39,302 bases of DNA from positions 1-39,302 of the forward strand of contig JAHFDY010000014.1 in NCBI GenBank assembly GCA_023248735.1. The letters are read 5' to 3'. Under the pieces are notes generated by a model that saw nothing but the letters and a program-made list of their open reading frames with translations, was not told where the DNA came from and did no database searches. Within the stretch, counting starts at the first letter, position 1. The number at the start of each line of letters is the position of its first letter. The position numbers and the translations under genes were made by a program. Of this stretch, positions 9,242 through 39,302 are shown in pieces. The DNA is from Myxococcales bacterium. Lineage in GTDB: Bacteria; Myxococcota_A; Polyangia; Polyangiales; Polyangiaceae.

Positions 9242-10213
9242 ATGAAATTGACTATTCGATGCCTTTCGGTCTGCGGTTCCTTGCTACTTTTCGGATGCTC
9301 GGGCACCAAAGTCGACGCGCCGCACGAAGTGAAACTCGAGGTCGTACCGGGTACCCTCACCGCAGCGCACGACGCCTACATGAAGAGTGACTGGATTGCG
9401 CTGGGCGAACGCGTTCGCGACGTTCTGCTCATGGCCAACGCCGGCGATCTTGCGCGCCAGAACGCGCTCGAACTGCTCGATAGCGCTTACGAGATCAACC
9501 ACGGCTCACTGCCGTCGACGTTCAAGGTTCCGTCCGGCATCGAAGGAATGGCCTACGGGCAAATCGCGGGTGTGGACCCGAATGGCCCGATGTTTCATAT
9601 TTTCATACGCGGGGAAGGGCCGGCGTCGTCGCAAATCAAGAACATTACGGTTCGCAAACTTCCCAACGAAGTATTGCTCGATAAGGTCGAAAAAAAAGGA
9701 ACTTTCGAAGTTACGAATACATCCACAGGGTCCGAATTTGAGCTCGACGCGACCGTGCAGTCGCTTCCGTCTGACGGCGTATTCTCAGTGCGGCTCGAAC
9801 TGACAAGTGGCGTGGTTTCCGAGGGCTCTTTCATCGCGCGAGGGCTTTCGGCTTCGGCGTCGCCGGTGATCACTTCGCCCGCGCATGCGTCATCACTCTC
9901 TGAACCCAATCCGATGGTGCGATGGGCGCCGTTTCATTCGCCCGAACGGAAGCCTTTCGAGCGACGAAGCCTCGGCGTCTATGTAAGCCGGCAGTTGCCT
10001 GGCGATCGTGACGAAAGAGCGTGGGAGTACTTCACGATGAAGCCCAGCGAGTTCGACGGGATCCGTATCGGAGATGCGCGAGGCGAGGGCGAAGCGAAAC
10101 TGAAGCCGGGCGGCTATTGGCTTTCCGTCACAGCCGGTGAGTCGCGAACGTTTGGCCAGATACGGCTGGTTCGAAGAAGCCGTACCGTCACCGCGTTTCG
10201 CGTGGTCCCGTAG
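9242..10213 (+). CDS. lipoprotein of unknown function downstream of the two-component system
   Basis: AGGAGG upstream and ATG at 9242 give MKLTIRCLSVCGSLLLFGCSG, a lipobox signal. The ORF-track start at 9137 lacks a signal peptide. Confidence 0.75.
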   Translation: MKLTIRCLSVCGSLLLFGCSGTKVDAPHEVKLEVVPGTLTAAHDAYMKSDWIALGERVRDVLLMANAGDLARQNALELLDSAYEINHGSLPSTFKVPSGIEGMAYGQIAGVDPNGPMFHIFIRGEGPASSQIKNITVRKLPNEVLLDKVEKKGTFEVTNTSTGSEFELDATVQSLPSDGVFSVRLELTSGVVSEGSFIARGLSASASPVITSPAHASSLSEPNPMVRWAPFHSPERKPFERRSLGVYVSRQLPGDRDERAWEYFTMKPSEFDGIRIGDARGEGEAKLKPGGYWLSVTAGESRTFGQIRLVRRSRTVTAFRVVP

Positions 10214-18785: not shown

Positions 18786-20117
18786 GTGACGACTCGTTTC
18801 GAATCCGCAAGCGTGCTCGCCATGAGCCTCCTCGGGTGTCGTGCGGTCTTGGGGATTGGTGACCCTTCAGTTGTCGACGGAGGCGCAGATGGCAGTGCGG
18901 ACATCGGTGCAGCCGATGTGGGAAGCGCGGGATCGGATTCCGTGCGGTCCATCGTTGTGGGTGACGTCGACACGTGCGCTGTGTTTTCCAATGGTCGCGC
19001 GAAGTGTTGGGGCCAGGGTTTCGGCGCGTCTGGCGTTCGCGGTTGCTTTTCGGATTTTCAGCGGGGCGCTGCGTTGCCTTATCTCGACTTTGGGAAGAAT
19101 GTGTCCGTGAAGCAAATTGTCAGCGGACGCAACCATCTGTGCGCGCTCACGGTGGACGGAAAGGTGAAATGTTGGGGCACAAATCAGTCGGGGGAACTCG
19201 GCTTGGGTGATGATGTCACGCGTGGATGCGCTGGCATGGGCGACGCACTCCCTTTCGTGAATTTGGGTGGAAACGTTGAGGCCTTGGCTGCCGGTTCAAA
19301 GCACACATGCGCGATTCTGGAGAATGGTAGTGCGGTGAAGTGCTGGGGAGGCAACAGCGAAGGCCAGTTGGGCCTCGGGCACACGCAAGATGTCGGCAAG
19401 CAAGTGCAGGACATTCCCTTCGTTCCGCTTGATCTTGGACAAAAAGCCGTCAAGGAAATTGCCGCTTCCGAAAACTATACTTGTGTGAAGCTCATCAGCA
19501 GTCAGATCAAATGTTGGGGCGAAGGCGGTCCCTATCTCGGAGCTGGAGACACACGCAGTCGCGGTACGAGTCCGAGCGACATGGGCGAGGCGCTCCAACC
19601 CGTGGCTACCGGATTCGAAGCAGCGTCAATCGCACCAGCGTGCGCCATCGACGCTGAGGGTCACGGAAAGTGCTGGGGAATCGTTTGGGGATTGGGTGCG
19701 AGTGTCTTTATCGGCAGCGCACCCAATGAGGTGAGCAAGCTCGCATTTTTTGACTTCGGAAAAGCGGGGCGCATGACGAAATTTGCCCGTTACAGCATGG
19801 GCATCTGCGCGATCCAAGAGCAAGCGTTGCGATGTTGGGGCCCAAATGCGAGCGGCCAACTCGGCAATGGATCAACCCTCGGGTGGGGCGACGACATGAC
19901 GGAGTTGATCAAGCAACTTGCGCCGGTTGATCTTGGCTCCAATCGGTACGCGGTGGACGTATCGGTCGGACCCGAACACGTGTGCGCAGTCCTCGACGAC
20001 GGCACGGCGAAGTGCTGGGGCTCCAACGAGTATGGACAACTTGGCATTGCAGGTGGAAGGCGTGGCGACGAACCCGGCGAGATGGGCGACGCACTTCCGA
20101 CCGTCGAGCTGTTCTGA
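18786..20117 (+). CDS. RCC1-repeat (beta-propeller) secreted protein
   Basis: About seven C(A/V)x(6-9)(K/R)CWG repeats with intervening GQLGLG-type motifs; N-terminal lipobox-like LAMSLLGC. GTG start. Confidence 0.85.
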   Translation: MTTRFESASVLAMSLLGCRAVLGIGDPSVVDGGADGSADIGAADVGSAGSDSVRSIVVGDVDTCAVFSNGRAKCWGQGFGASGVRGCFSDFQRGAALPYLDFGKNVSVKQIVSGRNHLCALTVDGKVKCWGTNQSGELGLGDDVTRGCAGMGDALPFVNLGGNVEALAAGSKHTCAILENGSAVKCWGGNSEGQLGLGHTQDVGKQVQDIPFVPLDLGQKAVKEIAASENYTCVKLISSQIKCWGEGGPYLGAGDTRSRGTSPSDMGEALQPVATGFEAASIAPACAIDAEGHGKCWGIVWGLGASVFIGSAPNEVSKLAFFDFGKAGRMTKFARYSMGICAIQEQALRCWGPNASGQLGNGSTLGWGDDMTELIKQLAPVDLGSNRYAVDVSVGPEHVCAVLDDGTAKCWGSNEYGQLGIAGGRRGDEPGEMGDALPTVELF

Positions 20118-26606: not shown

Positions 26607-27521
26607 CTACCCTGGCACACCCGGAGGGTCAGGCGGCGGCTCTTGCGCGGGTTGCGCGAGCGACTCTGCAAAACGCAACAAGAAGTCGACCTTGTCGCCT
26701 CGAATCCCGAGTTGCTCGAAAACGGGTTCGGATGCCTTTGTCATCGGCACCCAGTCGGTGCCGATGCCGGCGTGCGCGAGCAACATGTCGGTGAGCGCAA
26801 CCACGTATGCCATCTTTTGCTTGTGGCGCGACTTCGACGCATCGTGGTGATGATTCACCGAATCGACAATGACGTCCGAGAGGCGCCACTTATCGCAAAC
26901 GTAAGAACCCACTTGCGCGTGATGACGCAAGATCGCGACGCGCAGATCGTCGAGCGGTGGTGGCCTTCCGATTTTCTGATACGCGTCTGCGACGATACCA
27001 AGGACAGCGACCTCCCCGATGTCATGGAGGAGGCCCGCAAGATATGCGGAGTCTGTTTCGCCTCCGCGCATGAGGCACACTTGCTTCGCGATGAGTCCGG
27101 CGGAGTGGGCCGTGTTGAAGACCGCCGCAATGCGTTCGGTGTACCCGGGGACGCGAAATAGCTTCGTCATGGTGACGACCTGAAACGCGACGTCGCGCAC
27201 CTGTGGAATGCCGAGTCGAACGATGCTCGCCCGGAGTGAAGTAACCGGCGTCCCTCGCGCGTAAAGCGCCGAGTTGGCAACCGACACGAGCCGAGCCGCG
27301 ATCGAAGGATCCTTGATGACGGTCTCTTCGACATCTGCAATGTCGACATCAAGGCGGCTTGCGATGGTGTTCAGTTTGACCGCCACGTGGGGAAGCAACG
27401 GGGGTCTAAAGCGACCGGAGTCGACCGTCGCCTTCACCAATATCGCAATCCGTTCGGCAAACTCTTCCGTACCGACCAGGGAGAGGTCAGGTGCAACCGG
27501 AGGACTGGTGTTGCGATTCAT
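26607..27521 (-). CDS. HDOD domain protein
   Basis: RPPLLPHVAVKLNTIASRLDVD...VIKDPSIAARLVSVANSALY...LRASIVRLGIPQVRDVA...LLHDIGEVAVL. Confidence 0.92.
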   Translation of the reverse strand: MNRNTSPPVAPDLSLVGTEEFAERIAILVKATVDSGRFRPPLLPHVAVKLNTIASRLDVDIADVEETVIKDPSIAARLVSVANSALYARGTPVTSLRASIVRLGIPQVRDVAFQVVTMTKLFRVPGYTERIAAVFNTAHSAGLIAKQVCLMRGGETDSAYLAGLLHDIGEVAVLGIVADAYQKIGRPPPLDDLRVAILRHHAQVGSYVCDKWRLSDVIVDSVNHHHDASKSRHKQKMAYVVALTDMLLAHAGIGTDWVPMTKASEPVFEQLGIRGDKVDFLLRFAESLAQPAQEPPPDPPGVPG

Positions 27522-27616
27522 GATGAGGACTCACCCGTTAACTTACAACGGAACAGTGCCGCAGATCCCTTAGGCCTGGAGCATCAAGTTCCTCCGTTTT
27601 CTCACGTGGTCTCATC

Positions 27617-29977
27617 TTGAACCAACAATCTGGGAACCCCCAACCGGGCCAACGCGTGCCCATGCTCTCAGATCGCCCCTTTCCAGCCGCGATAACCGTG
27701 CATTTGTGCGACGGGCGCATACTTACAGGCAGAATCGTCCACTTTTCACCTTACGCCCCCAATGTCACGCTGGATGCCGACATTGAGGGACAGGCGACCG
27801 CAAAGCGGTTGATGCTCTCAGGCGACAGCATCGCCTACGTCGCTTTCCGAGCGGCACGCGGAGCGCCAACTCCGAAGCGCGATTCGGGGATGAAGCGGCA
27901 CAAGCTCCACCTCGCAAGCGGAAAGGCTGTCCTCGTCGAACTTGCGCCTCAACCCGCCGGAAGTCCACTTGGGTTCTACGCCATCCCGACCGAACGCGAT
28001 TGGGATGTGCGCGAGTACTTTTTCTATTCGCACGCCGTTCTGAGACAAGAACTCGACGAACCCATTGGCGAGATGTTGATTCAAGACGGCGTCGTCGATG
28101 CGAATGCTGTCGCGAAAGGCCTTACGACCCAGGAAACCGATCGCAAGAAAACGCTGGGCGACATTTTGGTCGAGCGTTCGAAAGTGCAGCGCGATCAAGT
28201 TGAAGAAGCTGCGTTGCTTCAACAACGACGGAAGGCCAAGATCGGCGAACTGCTCGTCGAAGCCGGGCTCGCGACAGAAGCGGACATCGAAGACGCGCTC
28301 AAGGAACAGAGGGAGAACAAGGGCAAGCGCCTCGGTGAGATCTTGATGGGCATGGGCATAATCAAGGAAATTGACTTAATGCGCGTGCTCGCTCGTAAGT
28401 TCAATCTTCCGCTGATCGACTTGGATGACAACTCACCGCAGGACTCCGCGGTCTCGCAAGTCCCCCGGCATCTTATTGAGCGACTTGGTGTGCTTCCGAT
28501 CTATGCGGATTCGATGAACGTGATCATCGCGATCAGCGACCCGCTTGAGTTTCAGGCGGCCGACGCGATTCGCACCGCCGACAAGAAGCGCGTGATCGAG
28601 GTGCTCGTTACGCCGTCTCAACTCAAACGTTATGTCGAGCAGGCGATGGTTTTGCGCGAACTCGACCCGAGTTCGCACGCTGCAGAGGACGTAGGCGACA
28701 TTCTCAAAGGTCTCGAGCACGAGAAGATCGGCGTCGAACTCATCACTGAGCAGGAAGAGAAAATCTCCGCGGAATCTGCAAGCGGGGTCATCCGCTTGGT
28801 GAACAAGATCATCCTTGATGGTTATCGCCGAGGCGCTTCCGACATTCACATTGAGCCCAACGGAAAAGAACGTCCAACGACCGTTCGCTTTCGCGTCGAC
28901 GGTGATTGCGTTCGATACATCGACGTTCCCGCAACGCTGCGCCAGGCCATCACCGCGCGCATCAAGATCATGGCGCAGATGGACATCTCGGAGCGTCGCA
29001 AGCCCCAGGATGGAAAGATCCGGTTTCGTGTCGGCGATCGCCACATCGAATTGCGCATTGCGACCCTGCCAACCGTTAACGACAACGAAGACGTCGTGCT
29101 TCGTATTCTGGCGTCGAGTCGTCCCCAAGCCCTCGACAAAATGGGGATGAGCGCACGCAACTTGCGTGAGCTCAACAATGCCATTCGGAGACCCTATGGT
29201 TTGATCCTCTGCGTGGGTCCAACAGGGTCAGGCAAGACCACCACTCTTCACGCTGCGCTGGCCGCTCTGAATGACCAGGACACAAAAATTTGGACGGCTG
29301 AGGACCCCGTCGAGATCACCCAGCCGGGCCTTCGCCAGGTGCAGGTCAATCGAAAAATTGGCTACACGTTTGAGATGGCGATGCGCGCGTTCCTGCGTGC
29401 TGATCCTGACATCATCATGGTTGGCGAAATGCGTGACGCCGAAACGGCCGGAGTGGCGGTTGAAGCTTCCCTCACGGGTCACCTTGTCCTCTCCACGCTT
29501 CACACGAACACGGCGCCTGAAACGGTAACGCGCCTCCTCGACATGGGCATCGATCCATTCAGCTTCGCTGACGCACTTGTGGCGGTCCTCGCTCAGCGCT
29601 TAGCGCGCGCGTTGTGCGGGGCGTGCAAGCGTTCCTATCTTGCCAAACCTACCGAAGTCGAAACGATGGTCTTGGCCTATGGGCAAGAAGCCTGGGAGAA
29701 AACGTTCGGCGTTGCTGATCCGAACAGTGTTCAGCTGTACCGACCCATCGGCTGTCAGCAATGTGACAATTCCGGTTACAAAGGACGTGTTGCGATTCAC
29801 GAGCTTCTCGTGACCGATGAAGTCCTTCGGCGTTCGATCGCGGCCAAGGAACCCGTGCAAAAAATTCGCGATCTTTGCATTGCAGCTGGAATGACGACGC
29901 TGATGCAAGATGGCATCGACAAGGTCCTCTCGGGTCTCACTGACATGAAACAAGTGCTCGCCGTTTGCGCAAAGTAG
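27617..29977 (+). CDS. PilB/GspE family assembly ATPase with N-terminal MshEN-like motifs
   Basis: GPTGSGKTTTLHAAL, GEMRDAETAGVAVEASLTGHLVLSTLHTN and CGACKR...CQQCDNSGYKGR zinc motif. Start uncertain: TTG 27617, GTG 27656 or ATG 27662. Confidence 0.93.
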   Translation: MNQQSGNPQPGQRVPMLSDRPFPAAITVHLCDGRILTGRIVHFSPYAPNVTLDADIEGQATAKRLMLSGDSIAYVAFRAARGAPTPKRDSGMKRHKLHLASGKAVLVELAPQPAGSPLGFYAIPTERDWDVREYFFYSHAVLRQELDEPIGEMLIQDGVVDANAVAKGLTTQETDRKKTLGDILVERSKVQRDQVEEAALLQQRRKAKIGELLVEAGLATEADIEDALKEQRENKGKRLGEILMGMGIIKEIDLMRVLARKFNLPLIDLDDNSPQDSAVSQVPRHLIERLGVLPIYADSMNVIIAISDPLEFQAADAIRTADKKRVIEVLVTPSQLKRYVEQAMVLRELDPSSHAAEDVGDILKGLEHEKIGVELITEQEEKISAESASGVIRLVNKIILDGYRRGASDIHIEPNGKERPTTVRFRVDGDCVRYIDVPATLRQAITARIKIMAQMDISERRKPQDGKIRFRVGDRHIELRIATLPTVNDNEDVVLRILASSRPQALDKMGMSARNLRELNNAIRRPYGLILCVGPTGSGKTTTLHAALAALNDQDTKIWTAEDPVEITQPGLRQVQVNRKIGYTFEMAMRAFLRADPDIIMVGEMRDAETAGVAVEASLTGHLVLSTLHTNTAPETVTRLLDMGIDPFSFADALVAVLAQRLARALCGACKRSYLAKPTEVETMVLAYGQEAWEKTFGVADPNSVQLYRPIGCQQCDNSGYKGRVAIHELLVTDEVLRRSIAAKEPVQKIRDLCIAAGMTTLMQDGIDKVLSGLTDMKQVLAVCAK

Positions 29978-30020
29978 CGGGATTAGAGCGAATCAACCTT
30001 CGCACTGCGATCTATTTTTG

Positions 30021-30043
30021 CACGATTGCATTGCCGAATCGTG
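30021..30043. promoter_or_regulatory. inverted repeat CACGATT-N9-AATCGTG upstream of the desaturase gene (operator or stem-loop candidate)
   Basis: Arms 30021-30027 and 30037-30043 are exact reverse complements with a 9-bp spacer. Confidence 0.4.
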
Positions 30044-30095
30044 ACGCACCGCCGTGCGCACGAGCCTAGGGTCGTGTCACCGAGGAGGGAGCACT

Positions 30096-31058
30096 ATGCT
30101 TCGCTACGCCGCCGATCGACGGACCATGGTTTGGTCGTTCATCCTGTTTCCGAGTGTCATTGCAATTCAATACGCGATGCCTCAACTCGCGGGTTGGATG
30201 CTGCCGATCGGCCTGTACATGGGCTTTTGCTATGGCGTGTTCTCGCACAACCACAACCACACGCCGACGTTCGTCAAAAAGAGTCACAACACGCTCTTCG
30301 CGGCCTATCTGTCATTTATCTACGGCTATCCGACCTTTGCGTGGATCCCGACCCACAATCTCAATCACCACCGCTTCGTGAACAAGGCTGGCGATGCCAC
30401 GATCACCTGGCGCTACTCGAGAGAGAACACGTGGACCGTTGCGTGGACTTATTTCTTCGTTTCGTCCTATTGGCAGGCCGGTCCCATTAAGGAGTACCTA
30501 GCGAAAGCAAAGGCGAAGCATCCGAAGCTCTATCGTCAAGCAATTGGACAATATGTCGCTCTGATCGTTGGCCAGGTATCGATGCTTGCGCTCGCGGTAC
30601 GCCTTCACGGGACGAGGACAGGCTTGTGGGTCTACACATCGGCACTCCTGTTGCCGGGATTTTTTGCGCTTTGGTCAATGATGTTTATCAATTACATCCA
30701 GCACGTGCACTGCGACCCATGGTCGAAGCACAACCACTCGCGCAACTTTGTGAGCCCATACGCCAACTACGTCGTGTTCAACGCCGGCTATCACGCCGCT
30801 CACCACGAGAACTCCGGCATGCACTGGAGCGAACTCCCTGGGGCTCACGCAAAAATCGCCGACCAGATCGATCCGGAATTGAGGCAAGCCTCGATCTTCT
30901 GGTTTTGCATCCGGAGCTACCTGCTCGGTGCATTCAGCGATCGCTTTCGCACGAAGCAAGTCGGCCGCGCGGCCGACGATCCGCCAAATGGTGAACTCTC
31001 ACTTGAGACCGCCGAAGTTGCGGCCGAAGAGCTCGGCGTAAACGCGCAGATGGCGTAG
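30096..31058 (+). CDS. membrane fatty acid desaturase
   Basis: Histidine boxes HNHNH, HNLNHH and HAAHH with TM segments. AGGAGG before ATG 30096. Confidence 0.9.
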   Translation: MLRYAADRRTMVWSFILFPSVIAIQYAMPQLAGWMLPIGLYMGFCYGVFSHNHNHTPTFVKKSHNTLFAAYLSFIYGYPTFAWIPTHNLNHHRFVNKAGDATITWRYSRENTWTVAWTYFFVSSYWQAGPIKEYLAKAKAKHPKLYRQAIGQYVALIVGQVSMLALAVRLHGTRTGLWVYTSALLLPGFFALWSMMFINYIQHVHCDPWSKHNHSRNFVSPYANYVVFNAGYHAAHHENSGMHWSELPGAHAKIADQIDPELRQASIFWFCIRSYLLGAFSDRFRTKQVGRAADDPPNGELSLETAEVAAEELGVNAQMA

Positions 31059-31196
31059 AGAACGTCCTTCGCCGCGCCCCCAGCCAAGAGCACGTGAGAC
31101 ACTGGTAACTTTGGCGTGGTCGGTCGTGTTGCGCCCCTTGTGGACTGGATGGGCGCGTGGCAAGAGCATCGCCGCGTAGGGACCGGAGCGTTGGAA

Positions 31197-32426
31197 ATGA
31201 TCAAAATTCGGGTATTGGAGGCGACCGCGATCGTCGCGTTGCTGTCGTGCTCAGAAGCAGCACAAACGATCAACGGGATTGAAGCCCGGGTTGACGGAGG
31301 CACGGTGCGGGCCGTGGGATCTGCATGCGTGACCGATAAGGACTGCGATCCGGATGGATCGATCAGGTGTATCGGCGATGGATTTCCGGGTGGCTACTGT
31401 TCGCAGATCGATTGCAAGACCGGCGGGTGTTCAGCAGACAGTGAGTGTTACATTTTGGCGAGTGGCGTCCGCGCTTGCCTCGCAAAGTGTGAGTCAAACG
31501 CAGACTGTCGACAAGGATACGCATGCACCGATAACGGCGCTTGCGACGTTGCCTGCGCAGAGAGTTCGTGTGGCGATGGCCTGACCTGCACCGAAGGACG
31601 TTGCGTTGCCGATCTCACGAAGCACCCCGCGCCACGATTTCCTGAGCCAGCGTGCGATGACGCCCCCGATTGGCGATGCCGCGATGGTGCGACGGAGTGC
31701 GGCACGCTCTATCCGTTCGAACCCGTCGACGGGCCCGGGTACACGAACTATCCCATCAACGGCGAGACTCTTGCCGATCAGTACCGAAGCTTCGCACGCA
31801 AGGACACCATCATGCTCGTGAAGTCCGCCGCGGCGCTCGTCGCGTGCAAGACGAAGGGGTGGCGAATGGGCAACGGCCAAGTGCTCGCGCTTGGTGACAT
31901 GAGCGAAGCGAACGGCGCCATTCCCGGTACGCGTGAGAACGATCCAGGTCACCCCGCCGGAACGCACCTGAACGGCTTTGATATGGACATCGGGTACTTC
32001 CAGCTCAAGGGAGCGGACAATCAATTGCGACCGATCTGCATGCACACGGAAAATGGTAAGGAGGCTTACCATTGTACCGCGGCGCCGAACAATCTCGATC
32101 TCTGGCGCCAGTCGATGGTTCTCGGCACGATGTTCGCGACCGACCGTATTCGCGTGATTGGTGTCGATGGCAAGGTTGGCGCTCTCGTCACGGTTGCGAT
32201 GAAATCGCTTTGTAAAGAAGGTTTCCTATCGAACGACTCGTGCAAGAACGAGAAGCTCGCCTACGAGGAAACTGACGGCGGGGCAGGGTGGTACCTGTTT
32301 CACCTTCACCACTTTCACATCAGCTTGAACAAGTATCCGGCGCATGGGTACCCAACGGAAATGCTGAGCATCGCACCCCAACGCGGGAGCCTTCGCGATC
32401 GCGACATGTTGATGCGCTCGCATTGA
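31197..32426 (+). CDS. Cys-rich lipoprotein with MepA/LAS-type metallopeptidase-like C-terminus
   Basis: MIKIRVLEATAIVALLSCS lipobox, DxDC-type Cys repeats, then GHPAGTHLNGFDMDIGYFQ and FHLHHFHISL, which resemble the LAS metallopeptidase HxxGxD and HxHF sites. Confidence 0.65.
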   Translation: MIKIRVLEATAIVALLSCSEAAQTINGIEARVDGGTVRAVGSACVTDKDCDPDGSIRCIGDGFPGGYCSQIDCKTGGCSADSECYILASGVRACLAKCESNADCRQGYACTDNGACDVACAESSCGDGLTCTEGRCVADLTKHPAPRFPEPACDDAPDWRCRDGATECGTLYPFEPVDGPGYTNYPINGETLADQYRSFARKDTIMLVKSAAALVACKTKGWRMGNGQVLALGDMSEANGAIPGTRENDPGHPAGTHLNGFDMDIGYFQLKGADNQLRPICMHTENGKEAYHCTAAPNNLDLWRQSMVLGTMFATDRIRVIGVDGKVGALVTVAMKSLCKEGFLSNDSCKNEKLAYEETDGGAGWYLFHLHHFHISLNKYPAHGYPTEMLSIAPQRGSLRDRDMLMRSH

Positions 32427-32508
32427 TCTGAAGACTCACACAAAGTCTCGCGGGATATGGCTCAATGCGTGCTTAACCCCTCCTTCGGGCCGGCCGTCTA
32501 ATACGTGC

Positions 32509-33618
32509 ATGGTGGAACCCGACGACCGCCTTCTCATCACCCTTGGGCTGCGCGATCAGGCGCTAAACGTGGCAAAAGAGGCGGCCTCGCTCGTCGGTGC
32601 GTCGGTTTCTTCGTACGAAGACATTAAGGACTTTACCGAGTGTCTCGAGTCGCAAATGCCGCTCGCGGTCCTTGTGCGACCCGGGCAACTCGCGCAAGCC
32701 GCTACGTTCAATTTGAGGACCCAACCTCGGTTCGCCAACGTTCCAATTTTCGGTGCGGCGCTCGATCGCAGCGATCTATCTTTTGTCGAACTGTTCACAT
32801 GGGGTGGCGACGACCTCGTGTCCCTAGTGAACTCAGAACCCCTCTCTCGTCGCCTGCGCATCTTATGCTCGCAGAGCGTGGCGCGAGCGTCGCAAGGCCC
32901 CGGCGAGGGGTACGCGCTCGTGGCGGGTGCCGATCCGCAATGGCGCACCGTGATGGCGCGTGCGCTCTTCAACGGAGGCTTTCGTGTGCGCTTCTCGAGC
33001 AGCGCAACTGACACCTTAGACGAGCTACGTAACGATCAGGTGCGGATGGTCGTCGCCGCCGATGGTTTGCGCCCGGACGGTGCCGCTTCCGTCTTTCGTG
33101 AGGCGCGTAAGACGAACCAAGTCCCGTGGGTTGTCGTGGCGTCGCCGAAGAGGCTCGCAGCCTGTGCGAGCGAGCTTCGCGGTTCAACGAACGTGGCAAT
33201 CGCCGATGCCTTTGGTCCGCCCGAGAACGTGCTCTTCGTTGCCAATGACTTGATCCATGGTCGAGGTGGCGACAAGCGGGCGGCTGTCAGGTTACTTTAC
33301 GGTACGTCGGTCGCGTTTCGGCCTGCGGGTCGCGAAGTCGACGACGTCGGCTTTAGCTACAATTTGTCGTCCGGCGGTGTGTACGTGCGAACCCTAGCGC
33401 CGTGCGACGTGGGGCAAGAAATCTGGCTCGAGTTGTGGCCGCCACGCTCAGAGCGGCGCGTCCGTCTCGCAGGCAGCGTCGCGTGGGTGCGTCCCTTTGG
33501 GAGCCCAGAAGGCGCGACTGCACCGCCGGGCTGCGGTGTTCAGCTGAGCGCGGGTCTCGCCGGTGATCTCGAGCGATACCGTGAGGGCGTGGACGTATTT
33601 GAACGTTCACATAGTTGA
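32509..33618 (+). CDS. two receiver-like domains plus PilZ domain protein
   Basis: Receiver-like folds (PLAVLVRPG..., VRMVVAADGLRPDG...), then C-terminal YNLSSGGVYVRT (PilZ NxSxxG) and LAGSVAWVR. Confidence 0.75.
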   Translation: MVEPDDRLLITLGLRDQALNVAKEAASLVGASVSSYEDIKDFTECLESQMPLAVLVRPGQLAQAATFNLRTQPRFANVPIFGAALDRSDLSFVELFTWGGDDLVSLVNSEPLSRRLRILCSQSVARASQGPGEGYALVAGADPQWRTVMARALFNGGFRVRFSSSATDTLDELRNDQVRMVVAADGLRPDGAASVFREARKTNQVPWVVVASPKRLAACASELRGSTNVAIADAFGPPENVLFVANDLIHGRGGDKRAAVRLLYGTSVAFRPAGREVDDVGFSYNLSSGGVYVRTLAPCDVGQEIWLELWPPRSERRVRLAGSVAWVRPFGSPEGATAPPGCGVQLSAGLAGDLERYREGVDVFERSHS

Positions 33619-33623
33619 CGAAC

Positions 33624-34802
33624 TTATTGCGAGCACAAGCGCTGGCGGTGACCTGCCGGGCACACGCCGTCGACGCTCCAAGCCGATGGCCGGTCCAGCT
33701 GCCAACGCGAGGCCGCGAAGCACAACCCGCACGCGGAGCAGAAGAACGGGACGATTTCATGATCGTGTTGCCACAACGCACGCGCGTTTCTCGAGGTGAG
33801 CGCGTCGCGTAATCGCTCGACGTGTTCAGGTGCGATGTTCCACTTCGCGTCTCCTGTCGGCGCAAACCCAGAAAGCGCAAGCCATACGGACTTCGACGGA
33901 GGATGCGACGCCAGCAACGTCAGCGTGCCTGCGACGAGGCCGGTTTGGTCGCACAGAAACGCGTGCGAGATGTCTTCGCCAATGATCGGTGGAGCCTCGA
34001 CGTGGGGGATCTCAACGGCCTGGGGCGGAGGCGGAGTCGTGACGTTAGCGTCGGGCAACGTGACCACTTCTTCCGCGGGCGCCCGGCCCGGGATCGGCGT
34101 CTCAACGCGCGCTTTGTAGAACAACGCGATTGCCGTCTGAATGCGCGCCCGACTGTATTCGTCTGCGTTGGGCGTTCCGTGGCGCTCATCGTGAAAGGAA
34201 CGTGAAGGCGAAAACACGTGCTCCAACCGCGCAAGTGGGCTCGCTTTCGTTGCGGCTTGCTCGTCGCTCACCGGCCGCCACTGATCGAGCTCTGGGTTCG
34301 GCAGCAGCTCGGTGGGTGGAAACTCCATCACGGTGTAGGCAAGACCGTCCAGTTCCCTGACCACATACGCAAGGCGTGGATTCGCAGATATCGCGGCGCT
34401 GAGCGCGCTCATGCCTGCGCGGGCTTCCGCGCTTGTGCCCTCACGATGGTGGATGCCCACCGAAGAGTAGTGTTCATCCGGGACAAAGTTATGCTCTGCG
34501 CCCGCGACGGGAAAGCCTGCGTCGTTGAGACGCGCGATCATGATGGCATGTCGCTCGGGCGCAATCGTGGCTCGCCACGCAGGCACACTCTCTGATTCGA
34601 AGCTGATCAGGCGACCAAGGTGGGTGTGACGACCGCCGTGCTTGCGCACGAGTAGACTTCCGTTGCTACCAAGTGAAACGATGACCATGCGCCCACCGCC
34701 GTGGTACTCGATCGTGGCTTCGGTGGGGCTTTCGCGCAGGCGCTCTGCCCATTGTTCGCGCAACCTCACCGGATCGTACGCGGTGACCGACATTGGCAGC
34801 AT
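33624..34802 (-). CDS. hypothetical protein with C-terminal zinc-ribbon-like Cys motif
   Basis: Long ORF with consistent coding character; C-terminus FFCSACGLCFAASRW...DGVCPAGHRQRL. Confidence 0.65.
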   Translation of the reverse strand: MLPMSVTAYDPVRLREQWAERLRESPTEATIEYHGGGRMVIVSLGSNGSLLVRKHGGRHTHLGRLISFESESVPAWRATIAPERHAIMIARLNDAGFPVAGAEHNFVPDEHYSSVGIHHREGTSAEARAGMSALSAAISANPRLAYVVRELDGLAYTVMEFPPTELLPNPELDQWRPVSDEQAATKASPLARLEHVFSPSRSFHDERHGTPNADEYSRARIQTAIALFYKARVETPIPGRAPAEEVVTLPDANVTTPPPPQAVEIPHVEAPPIIGEDISHAFLCDQTGLVAGTLTLLASHPPSKSVWLALSGFAPTGDAKWNIAPEHVERLRDALTSRNARALWQHDHEIVPFFCSACGLCFAASRWQLDRPSAWSVDGVCPAGHRQRLCSQ

Positions 34803-34806
34803 GGTA

Positions 34807-35082
34807 TCAGTCTTGCTCGATCGCTATCGTTCGGCCGTCGGGAAATCGTATGTTGATGCTCAAAGTCGGCATTGCCGCAGAGGTCAATGCGACCGTGCCG
34901 TCTGCGAAGCAATAGCGCGTCACACCTGTTCCGATTTGCACGGCGCCACCGTCGAACCATGCGTCGTATGCGCCCGTTAAATCGCCTGGCATTGGCTCAG
35001 TTCGCCAATTTGGCGGCGCGCCGATCGCCGTGAGAATGCGCGCAACATCGAGCTCACGCAGCCGCCCGGACAGTGGGTTCAT
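34807..35082 (-). CDS. hypothetical 91-aa protein
   Basis: ATG at 35082 overlaps the stop of the upstream gene (ATGA), giving MNPLSGRLRELDVARILTAIG. The track start at 35190 is probably too long. Confidence 0.6.
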   Translation of the reverse strand: MNPLSGRLRELDVARILTAIGAPPNWRTEPMPGDLTGAYDAWFDGGAVQIGTGVTRYCFADGTVALTSAAMPTLSINIRFPDGRTIAIEQD

Positions 35083-36044
35083 TTGACTTCTCCTCGAAGT
35101 GGCGGCGGTGGATTCCAAGGCATGCCGGGCGAGAACATTCCGCTGATCAGCTTTCGCTCGATGAACCAATTGCACACGTCGAACGCGCAATCGTCACGCC
35201 ATTCACGACCCATGAGCGCCCAACATACGAGTTCGGTGGGGCCACCCCGTTGTCCGCAGGCATCGTGGTGCCAGGCCCTACCCGCTAATAGGAGCAAGAC
35301 GTTGTGATCGGAGCCGTTCGTTGCTTTGCACGCCGGGCATCGGACGCCGCCCGCATGGGAGAGCCCGAGTGCTTGTGCGATGGGTTCGAGTTCGAGCCCG
35401 AACGTGCGCTCTCGAAGTGTTTGGGGTGTGATCACCATCGGGTCTCGCCAGGTGACCAGTCCTTGGCGATCTTGCTCGTAAGCGTTGAGCAATTCTTCTA
35501 GATCGTCTGCGTCCACTCGCGCACGGAACTCCCCTTCGAGCGCGGTGGCGAGGCGATCTTGAGCGCTACTTTGCCACGCGACTCTCGCCTCTTTTCGAAA
35601 GTGCGCGGCGCGATCGAGGTGTGCTGTGCGATCGCGATGAAAGCGATCCATCTGGTCGCGAAGAAAGGTGTCGCGTTCGGCCTTGATGATCGCAAACGTT
35701 TCTTGCACGGATCGCCACACGATTGGCGCTCCTGCCACTGGTGGAGACGGTGGCGTGTCCGGTGCGCGTGCAGGGACAACACGGCGGCGAAGGTGACTTC
35801 GAGCGCGGAGCTCGTCGATGCATACGCCAAGTCGCGACATGCGGTCTTCGAGGCGCTTGCGTTCGGTGCTGTCGTCGCTTTCGGCCGCCGCAGCCAGTCG
35901 CTCAGCGCATTCGAGTTCGAGCGCCATGGCTTCGACGACCTCACGCTCTGTCCTACGGCCGTCGCGCGTTCGACGTGGATCGCCAACACGTTTTGCTTCC
36001 GTTCCGGTGACCGCTTGGTTCAACTCTGCGAGGGAACGCATCAC
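35079..36044 (-). CDS. hypothetical protein with DnaG/CHC2-like zinc finger
   Basis: Charged, coiled-coil-like N-terminus, then GGVRCPACKATNGSDHNVLLLLAGRAWHHDACGQRGGPTELVCWALMGREWRDDCAFDVCNWFI, similar in spacing to the primase zinc-binding domain. Confidence 0.65.
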   Translation of the reverse strand: MMRSLAELNQAVTGTEAKRVGDPRRTRDGRRTEREVVEAMALELECAERLAAAAESDDSTERKRLEDRMSRLGVCIDELRARSHLRRRVVPARAPDTPPSPPVAGAPIVWRSVQETFAIIKAERDTFLRDQMDRFHRDRTAHLDRAAHFRKEARVAWQSSAQDRLATALEGEFRARVDADDLEELLNAYEQDRQGLVTWRDPMVITPQTLRERTFGLELEPIAQALGLSHAGGVRCPACKATNGSDHNVLLLLAGRAWHHDACGQRGGPTELVCWALMGREWRDDCAFDVCNWFIERKLISGMFSPGMPWNPPPPLRGEVK

Positions 36045-36094
36045 GGCTGAAGCCTATCAATGACTTCGTCGCGAAGGCGTGATGAGATTGCTTC

Positions 36095-36718
36095 GTGAGC
36101 GCGCGTGCCTCCTTTCGAGTCGACCTGACCTACGGATTGTTTCATCCCGGTGGCGGAAGGGCGCCGGGTGAGCAGAAAAAAACTTGGTTCTTCGAAATAC
36201 CGGTCGAGGCACCTTCTGCGCTCCCGCCGATTGCGTATTGGACCGAGCTCCTCCATCGCATCTTCTACGACGCAAACGTGGCGATGCGCAGACGCGAACC
36301 CAACGATGTTAACTGGCTTGGGCTTGTGCAATTTTGGGTTTCGCCGGTTCTCGGGGAGAGTCTCCTTGCGTGGGACGGACGCAGTGCCGATCTGCTTCCG
36401 TGGGTTGCGGCTGAGCGTGCGGTCGTGTGGGAGTCAGGGGCTTGTTACTTCGTTGCCAACGACGGGCGCTACGACACGTTCGGCTACATCGAGTACACCG
36501 AGTTAATCATGAACCGCTTGCTCGATGCAGGCCGAATTGATGCCGTCGCATTTCAGCACTTCATGCGGCTCTTTTTCCCGAACAACGCCGCGACTGCGCA
36601 CGAAGCATTTGCCGATCGCGCGCAGCGGGTCCGCAACATCGAAGCCATTCGCGAAGGAATTGGTTTCCGTCGGCAGCCCGGATCGCAGCCGATGTGTTCT
36701 GGCCCGCCTCAGCTGTGA
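36095..36718 (+). CDS. hypothetical protein, divergent from the zinc-finger gene
   Basis: 207-aa ORF with GTG start and balanced composition; no family recognised. Confidence 0.6.
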   Translation: MSARASFRVDLTYGLFHPGGGRAPGEQKKTWFFEIPVEAPSALPPIAYWTELLHRIFYDANVAMRRREPNDVNWLGLVQFWVSPVLGESLLAWDGRSADLLPWVAAERAVVWESGACYFVANDGRYDTFGYIEYTELIMNRLLDAGRIDAVAFQHFMRLFFPNNAATAHEAFADRAQRVRNIEAIREGIGFRRQPGSQPMCSGPPQL

Positions 36719-36728
36719 CGTGAGAGGT

Positions 36729-38246
36729 TCAAGGACACTTCTTCGTGGGGTAGCCCGTGTCGATTGCGCGCAGCGCAGTGAGCAGTGCTTGGCCTTGCGT
36801 CTTGAATGTACTCGAAGCGCACCACTGGTTGACTTGTTCGAACGGATCGGCCTCGAGGTCGAACAGTTTGTACGTGTTGATATCGTAAACCAACTTGTAC
36901 TTGTCCTTGCGAATAGCGCCCTTCACCATCATTCGTGTCAACGTCGCCACGTCGGTTGTGGTGACCGCGCTTGGGTCAATGAGGGAACTCTTGAGCGCGC
37001 TAACCGCTGTGGCGCTGTACGAGAACGTGTCGGTGTAGTTGTACGTTCGCTTTGACGTTGCGGTGGTCGACTTCAGGTAGTCAACAAAACTGACGGCATC
37101 CGAAGTCGTTGCGGATACGCCCATGATCTCGGCCATGGTCGAGAAGATATCGACGGTGTTCGTGAGGTGCGACACCGTGCGTCCGACGCTAGCAACGGAA
37201 CCCGTGCCCGTCCCCGTCTGACCGACAATTGCGGCGCCGTCCGCGACGATAAGCGGCACGTGAACACCACCCTGATAGGTGCTCGCCTTTGATTGCGTGG
37301 TTGACGTCACTTGGCTCACTGGCCCGTCCGTTCCGTTGTCACCGACCAAGAGGATGGTGGTGTTCGCGAGGACGGTCGGATCCATCGCTGAAAGCAACGT
37401 GCCAACGTGGTAGTCAGCGCACTCGAGAGTCTTGTGATAGAGCGCGGTGTCGTCCGTGCCCGTGATGGCTCCACTTAGGCAGAACGACGGCGGTTCTGAA
37501 TACGGCAGGTGTGCGGCGTTGAGCGCAACCGTTGCCCACCAAGGTTTCGTTTGGCGATCGATCCATTCGAGCGCATCTTCGACTGCCGCCGTTGTCACGT
37601 ACTCGGTAGCGGTCGAATTGGCGCGCTTTCCTGTTTCATCAATCACTACCTTCCCCCAGCTTGTGTAGCTCGGGACCATGCCGGCCAGTGATCCGGAGAA
37701 GTAGTTCCAGCCACGATCCGTAGGGAGCGCGCCTTTGGTGGTTCCCAGGTGCCACTTGCCAAAAAGCCCTTTCGCGTAGTTTGAATTGGACGTGAGCTCG
37801 GCGAGGGTCGAAATATCTTTCGGAACTTGCCAGAACGTGGTCGCACCCACCGGAACGCCGACACCGTGGTGAATGGCATAGCGCCCCGTGTAGATGCCAG
37901 CGCGTGTGGACGAGCAAGAGGGGTTCGACCACACATTCGTGAACCGCACGCCGGCGGCACTGAGTGAGTCAATGGTTGGCGTCGCGATCGCTCCGTCGGG
38001 TTGGTCGTCGCTGTTGGTGTCGTCGAGACCATCCGGAATCCCGTTCGCGTTGGTATCGACGATGCCTGTGCTCCCGTTGGTGGTCTTTGTGGCCGCGCGT
38101 AGGTCGCGCGCGTAGGAGCGAATTTCCTGGGCGCCAACGTCGTCGAGAATCACCAGCAAAATGTTCCTCGCCGCATGAGCTGGCGAGGATGCCGTTACGA
38201 AAAGGAAAGAAGCAGCTGCCGTGCCGGCAGCGTGGAGGGATCGCAT
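36729..38246 (-). CDS. secreted sulfatase / arylsulfatase family protein
   Basis: Signal peptide ending SSPAHA, NILLVILDDVGAQ, ATPTIDSLSAAGVRFTN, SNPSCSSTRAGIYTGRYAIHHG, GKWHLG and VGDNGTDGP. Confidence 0.9.
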   Translation of the reverse strand: MRSLHAAGTAAASFLFVTASSPAHAARNILLVILDDVGAQEIRSYARDLRAATKTTNGSTGIVDTNANGIPDGLDDTNSDDQPDGAIATPTIDSLSAAGVRFTNVWSNPSCSSTRAGIYTGRYAIHHGVGVPVGATTFWQVPKDISTLAELTSNSNYAKGLFGKWHLGTTKGALPTDRGWNYFSGSLAGMVPSYTSWGKVVIDETGKRANSTATEYVTTAAVEDALEWIDRQTKPWWATVALNAAHLPYSEPPSFCLSGAITGTDDTALYHKTLECADYHVGTLLSAMDPTVLANTTILLVGDNGTDGPVSQVTSTTQSKASTYQGGVHVPLIVADGAAIVGQTGTGTGSVASVGRTVSHLTNTVDIFSTMAEIMGVSATTSDAVSFVDYLKSTTATSKRTYNYTDTFSYSATAVSALKSSLIDPSAVTTTDVATLTRMMVKGAIRKDKYKLVYDINTYKLFDLEADPFEQVNQWCASSTFKTQGQALLTALRAIDTGYPTKKCP

Positions 38247-38417
38247 ATTAAGTTACCTCGATGAGCTATCCCTTTCAGTCGCGCGCCGCTGTTGAAGCAC
38301 GTCTCTCGCCTTTGTCAAACGCGCCAACGAGCGCGTCTTGCTTAGTGCCCCGCCGCCACCTCTGAGATCGCCAAAGGCGTCTGACAATGGGTACGCAAAG
38401 GGTTATGAAGGGTGGCC

Positions 38418-39302
38418 ATGGCCATTGCTCCTCACGCGTCCAGCGTCTCTTACGCGCCATCGCGCATGCTTCGGTTCCTATCGCGCGCGAAGACGTCTTC
38501 ATCGGCGGTTCCTTCGGCGGAGGCGCGTGAGGGCTTTCGCAAAGCGCAACGGCTTGCGTACGCGTGCGTGCAAGCGATTGCGTGTGAAGTTCGCGAAGGC
38601 ATGACCGAGCGGCAAATCGCAAAAAAATTGGGCGACTGGCTTGGTGACCACGGTGCGCATCTCTTTCTACATACGCCCCTGTGCTGGATCGGTTCGCATT
38701 CGCGCTTCGACGGATACAACGAACGTCATGGCGAATACCTGCCAAGCGACAGAGTCCTCGCAGCGGACGACATCTTCATCCTCGATGTGTCACCTGCTGT
38801 GGATGGATACATCGGCGATATCGGCTACACGACGTCGCTCAAACCACAACCTGCGCTCGACGACGCGATGCGATTCTTGCTCACGCTGCGCGAAGAGATT
38901 CCAACGCTCTTTTCGACCGAACGCACCGCAGAGGCAATCTGGGCACACATCCACCGCACGATTGTTGCGGCGGGCTATGACAATTGCCACGCCCTCTACC
39001 CCATGCGCGTACTCGGCCATCGGGTATACCGCGTGCCTGCATGGCTCGAGCGCGCGCGATTGCCACGCGCGCCGTTCGGTTTCCTCGGCGCCAATTGGTT
39101 TAGCACTCAGGCCACGCTCAAGTTTCTGCAGCACGGTTTCGTTGGCGAGCTCCTCACGCCGTCGCACATCGGAACGCTCGAAGGACTATGGGCGATCGAG
39201 CCGCACATTGGCGGTCTTGGATTTGGCGCAAAGTTCGAAGAACTGCTGATCGTCGAAAGTGGTCGCTCGTACTGGCTTGATGACGAGGTCCCTCACGTCA
39301 CG
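38418..39302 (+). CDS. M24 family metallopeptidase (Xaa-Pro aminopeptidase-like), truncated by the window end
   Basis: My own translation from ATG 38418, not in the ORF track: ...FILDVSPAVDGYIGDIGYT...VLGHRVYRVP...LWAIEPHIGG...KFEELLIVESG, matching the M24 D, D, H, E, E ligand order. Confidence 0.85.
   Translation, partial: MAIAPHASSVSYAPSRMLRFLSRAKTSSSAVPSAEAREGFRKAQRLAYACVQAIACEVREGMTERQIAKKLGDWLGDHGAHLFLHTPLCWIGSHSRFDGYNERHGEYLPSDRVLAADDIFILDVSPAVDGYIGDIGYTTSLKPQPALDDAMRFLLTLREEIPTLFSTERTAEAIWAHIHRTIVAAGYDNCHALYPMRVLGHRVYRVPAWLERARLPRAPFGFLGANWFSTQATLKFLQHGFVGELLTPSHIGTLEGLWAIEPHIGGLGFGAKFEELLIVESGRSYWLDDEVPHVT

Follow-up and report, generated by a model that had tools for sequence, protein, structure and literature searches.

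A rare, putatively accessory myxobacterial operon encoding a divergent CHC2-type zinc domain apart from a TOPRIM core

The features of a DnaG-type primase are a CHC2 zinc domain, a TOPRIM core and a link to the helicase, and the ligands of the classical CHC2 domain (Pfam PF01807) follow the pattern C-x2-H ... C-x2-C. In B. subtilis DnaG, the integrity of the zinc domain with the polymerase domain matters for template binding, and the isolated zinc domain has been reported not to bind ssDNA in gel shifts (PMC5429622), so that a stand-alone finger of this type is not automatically a DNA sensor.

Among the CHC2-TOPRIM mobile primase-like proteins of the Myxococcota is a CxxC-type subfamily (L011 and L090-L098). 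L011 combines a CxxC...CxxCG finger with the TOPRIM-like motif VVIVEGEPDFLTW, L092 carries a Toprim_2 domain (E 7e-9), and L127, which scores above the PF01807 cut-off, has the TOPRIM-like motif EGEPDFLTW in common with L011; the finger group to which L011, L092 and L127 belong is thus primase-like. The members tested (L011, L091 and L092) are not reported by PF01807 itself.

Two further proteins, from the same bacterial family as the locus described here, have a CHC2-type finger and no recognisable TOPRIM core, like P0001, the product of the first gene of that locus. One of these (L131, genome G555) is a CHC2 protein of 225 aa that is followed directly by an AAA_25 (RepA-type) ATPase (the pair at L131:2105-4059) and, because of this adjacency, would provide a precedent for a CHC2 finger working in trans with a replication ATPase. 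The genes downstream of AAA_25 look phage-like by eye, without Pfam confirmation. The other (L125 / L130:6352-7215, genome G505), a protein of 288 aa with two tandem CHC2-like fingers, is encoded near a GreA/GreB C-terminal-type gene. Both differ from P0001 in these neighbours and in that no counterparts of its partners, P0002 and P0003, were seen beside them; beyond the finger, homology to P0001 is not evident. No description of an operon encoding a TOPRIM-less CHC2 protein with a coiled coil was found in the literature covered, that is, outside subscription journals.

The present locus lies in the window, by which we mean the whole stretch of 39,302 nucleotides that was analysed, on contig C172 of the source assembly (G000; 4.39 Mb, 254 contigs, 88% complete). 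Its features are summarized in Table 1.

Table 1. Features of the three-gene locus and its borders (positions in the window)
Feature	Position	Strand	Remarks
Gene 1 (P0001, 321 aa)	35079..36044	-	Helical/coiled-coil N-terminal two thirds and C-terminal CHC2-type zinc domain; TOPRIM absent
CHC2/DnaG-type zinc domain of P0001 (about residues 217-294)	35163..35396	-	Putative ligands CPAC...HHDAC
Gene 2 (P0002, 91 aa)	34807..35082	-	Overlaps gene 1 by ATGA; preceded by SD-like GAGGAG; matches no family
Gene 3 (P0003, 392 aa)	33624..34802	-	N-domain, linker and C-terminal Cys/His zinc ribbon
Zinc ribbon of P0003 (residues 355-385)	33648..33740	-	CSACG...CPAGH; no family above cut-off
Divergent orphan gene (207 aa)	36095..36718	+	Separated from gene 1 by 50 bp; might be a fourth member; broken remnant in congener G003
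Segment without counterpart at either G003 flank	33619..36169	.	Both ends are synteny breakpoints

The initial annotation, made from the sequence alone, had delineated three minus-strand genes, two of them coupled by an ATGA overlap, and all three lie where it placed them. The tetranucleotide ATGA at 35079-35082 is common to the end of gene 1 and the start of gene 2, the latter being preceded by a good ribosome-binding site (CGAGGAG...ATG) at a suitable spacing, and the gap between genes 2 and 3 is 4 nt. Codon log-odds, trained on 18 genes of the window, favour the annotated frame over all others in each of the three genes as well as in the divergent 207-aa gene and, together with the operon spacing, rule out chance ORFs; the three frames are very probably real genes in one operon. 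The listed start of gene 1 is a GTG at 36044 that is followed by an ATG codon (36041), and that of gene 3 is an ATG at 34802; because the relatives of P0003 begin at MSxx, aligning from the residue that matches 34793, the true start of gene 3 is suggested to be at this position. Neither a sigma-70-like promoter nor an RNA family was found at the locus.

As initially noted, the three genes belong to no recognised family: no model of Pfam, NCBIfam, PHROG or PADLOC scored above the cut-off for P0001, P0002, P0003 or the 207-aa protein, and PADLOC-DB yielded zero matches to any of them at E<=1. Several candidate relationships were rejected. Weak phylum matches between residues 29-116 of P0001 and frames of about 1,400 aa, as well as matches of P0001 to RNA polymerase beta' structures in the PDB, were dismissed as similarity of composition and helices, and a match of P0001 in the same genus (L008) was dismissed because it overlaps a large TonB-receptor-like frame. 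Some weak matches of the P0003 C-terminus fall in implausible frames, and others, which we take to reflect resemblance to an MsrB-like zinc ribbon, were not accepted. The same applies to three plasmid matches (H2, H4 and H5), the annotations of which contain nothing comparable, and Magoh-like Foldseek matches of the P0003 model were disregarded, given that they were obtained only at E>=0.1 with a low-confidence model.

In the C-terminal zinc domain of P0001, the motifs CPAC (35339-35328) and HHDAC (35270-35256) are exact. In the phylum scan, residues 217-295 matched L011 weakly (E 0.003). A profile was built of ten CHC2 domains of the CxxC type, taken from primase-like proteins of myxobacteria, the relatives of the L011 finger (L090-L098) having been gathered without using P0001. 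Residues 218-284 score 32.1 bits with this profile, compared to 13.3 for the top-scoring one among 10,000 shuffled versions of the tail, and therefore P0001 bears a genuine DnaG-type zinc domain. The hhalign probability is 96.8%, and when the seed L011 is removed from the profile, P0001 still scores 27.5 bits versus 13.2 in shuffles; the CHC2-like finger of the initial annotation is thus upheld. Because PF01807 itself does not report P0001, this domain is a divergent member of the CHC2 family. Residues 217-294 have the same layout as the CxxC-type proteins, a helix, a Zn ribbon and a second helix, with the common motif LGL...CPAC...W..xxCG..G...LV..AL.G...W, and the conserved tryptophan of the tail (CNWF) aligns with the finger relatives. 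In contrast to the classical ligand pattern, that of P0001 is C-x2-C ... H-x2-C (C-C-H-C), and P0001 further departs from the CHC2/DnaG proteins in that its finger is C-terminal, behind a coiled coil, with the TOPRIM core absent and the score below PF01807 detection.

Structure prediction renders residues 1-200 of P0001 mostly helical, with helices at 23-86 (fairly high confidence) and 110-193 (less), in agreement with the coiled-coil-like region noticed at first, although the overall confidence of the model is low; no confident model was obtained for the finger because there is only one sequence to model from. Pfam and NCBIfam likewise bear out the lack of a TOPRIM primase core, with no TOPRIM match in P0001, P0002 or P0003. 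Neither is a helicase-binding domain recognised in P0001 or a helicase found among the annotated neighbours. Of the DnaG-type primase features, P0001 accordingly has the zinc domain and lacks the TOPRIM core and the helicase link and, judging from its own domains, would not be a primase. The G000 assembly contains no DnaG zinc domain above the cut-off, whereas 56 of the 59 genomes in the search of relatives have one, a difference that is probably due to assembly incompleteness (88%).

P0002 matches only itself, apart from a single genome among 193 in which L020 gives a weak match (E 6e-4). Of P0003, which ends in the CSACG...CPAGH motif exactly as first described, only the N-domain (residues about 7-180) recurs, over approximately 170 residues, at 28-32% identity, in two distant genomes of the phylum, G289 (CAKZKQ010000281.1) and G293 (PBBL01000003.1, Myxococcales bacterium SP4258), and among about 85,000 species searched at that sensitivity, these two contigs alone came up. 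In both proteins, the N-domain and a linker are followed by a C-terminal hydrophobic, TM-like segment, where P0003 has the zinc ribbon instead. These relatives are located among chromosomal-type genes, and no genes resembling those for P0001 or P0002 were seen near them in the stretch fetched.

Full-length P0001 was not found in 59 relatives, in 379 genomes of the phylum, or in phages, plasmids and IMG/VR, where the phylum searches are samples rather than complete surveys and the assemblies of congeners are incomplete. The trio was not detected a second time, nor were P0001 and P0002 found with partners elsewhere, and because of this, all that points to a joint function of the three proteins is their operon spacing. 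A co-inherited system, as originally envisaged, is not supported by these results: the trio did not recur in the genomes searched, and the P0003 N-domain occurs without the partners, in a separate context, namely, the TM-like proteins of G289 and G293, which is an outcome that the initial annotation had itself named as contradicting it.

The congener G003 allows the borders of the locus to be examined. Its PilZ neighbour shows 94% protein identity. Window positions 27209-33619 and 36169-39302 have their counterparts on two separate contigs of this genome, and each contig continues into different genes; at the first border, the match ends one base past the PilZ stop, and at the second, it ends within the 207-aa gene. 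The intervening segment (33620-36168) is thus missing at both G003 flanks, and the locus is a point of rearrangement or loss. Apart from this genome, the 207-aa protein itself was detected only as a remnant in G003, where 5'-truncated and internally deleted gene fragments (G003:C76; L035 ~9880-10170) are 89-91% identical at the DNA level, with the start and about 250 internal bases lost. This remnant suggests that the G003 lineage once possessed the 207-aa gene and perhaps, along with it, the module; a gain here and a loss there both fit. Taken together, the uniqueness of P0001, the recurrence of the P0003 N-domain alone and the G003 flanks without the module support the view that we are dealing with a rare accessory segment and not with a conserved system; the patchy distribution agrees with the accessory nature of the DNA considered at the outset.

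We tentatively favor, with a probability of about 0.4, a rare accessory operon in which P0001 has put a primase-type zinc domain to new use on a coiled-coil scaffold, where it probably serves as an adaptor to DNA or to the replication machinery. Under this scenario, P0001 is a coiled-coil protein with the CHC2 zinc domain that is seen in mobile-element primases, minus the catalytic core; it would oligomerise via its helical part, and its zinc domain, presumably binding zinc, would dock it on ssDNA or on the primase or helicase of a replicating element, where it could act as an adaptor or as a competitor. Genes 2 and 3 would supply co-translated partners, with a second zinc ribbon at the end of gene 3, and any benefit might lie in the control of replication or in the conflict with mobile elements. 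Several observations weigh against an adaptor: none of the genes adjoining the module is a replication ATPase, primase, integrase or phage gene, the C-C-H-C ligands are non-classical, the structure models are of low confidence, the trio was found once only, and the isolated zinc domain of B. subtilis DnaG was reported not to bind ssDNA (PMC5429622). The last point bears also on the DNA-sensing finger of the initial annotation, in favor of which no positive evidence emerged. In any case, the operon, otherwise an orphan, is an example of a primase-type zinc domain that is detached from the enzyme and placed on a coiled-coil scaffold. Should this finger have kept its recognition of ssDNA or of replication proteins, it would give compact access to the way in which hosts or elements monitor replication, and if it recognises neither, the domain has been reused as a structural module; at present, what stands is a rare operon, specific to its lineage, of which one domain lends itself to testing.

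Established here are the anatomy of the operon, the homology to CHC2, the missing TOPRIM core, the extreme rarity of the module and its location at a synteny breakpoint; zinc binding, oligomerisation, the binding target and any benefit are inferred. Other explanations were considered. The module could be what is left of a decaying mobile element, such as a prophage or an ICE, or else its cargo, in which case the finger is a leftover replication factor and the genes are no longer coordinated. This is possible, though rather unlikely: the nearest relatives of the finger are the mobile-type CHC2-TOPRIM proteins and the L131 protein that adjoins AAA_25, and the segment is missing in G003 with the adjacent 207-aa gene broken there, whereas every frame is open and codon-biased in the present genome, no integrase, tRNA, convincing direct repeats or phage structural genes were found flanking the module, and phage and viral collections gave no match. 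The recognisable neighbours in the window are instead chromosomal (PilZ/TIGR02266, sulfatase, T2SSE ATPases, HDOD, prolyl oligopeptidase and, at the window edge, M24 peptidase), as would be expected of a lineage-specific chromosomal operon with a regulatory or housekeeping role, in which the zinc domain would be a protein-protein module and not a nucleic-acid binder. The chromosomal-type surroundings of the P0003 N-domain relatives, with their TM-like segment, and the proximity of the L130 double-finger protein to a GreA/GreB-type gene fit as well, but the absence from nearly all relatives, the same genus included, is unusual for housekeeping genes and renders this explanation unlikely.

Defence against phages or plasmids, with the P0001 finger recognising replication intermediates of the invader and P0002 and P0003 providing the effector or its regulation, appears improbable. 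Such a role would be in keeping with the patchy occurrence of this accessory operon in a restricted lineage and with its place at a rearrangement breakpoint, with several orphan genes and with a primase-derived domain devoid of its catalytic core; nevertheless, PADLOC has no match, no nuclease, NTPase, TIR or other recognisable effector domain is present, defence and mobile genes are missing among the neighbours in the window, and the gene set was not found a second time, so that the defence-type module proposed initially gains no positive evidence. Of that interpretation, the orphan genes, the CHC2 finger, the lack of TOPRIM and the accessory distribution are supported, and the co-inherited, DNA-sensing and defence components are not. 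The more specific possibility of a replication-sensing module, whereby the catalytically empty finger protein and its two partners, perhaps with the 207-aa protein, detect or block the replication of foreign DNA, is highly improbable. Elsewhere in the window (18786-20117), a 443-aa protein with RCC1-type beta-propeller repeats is encoded next to the pilus/T2SSE-type ATPase genes.
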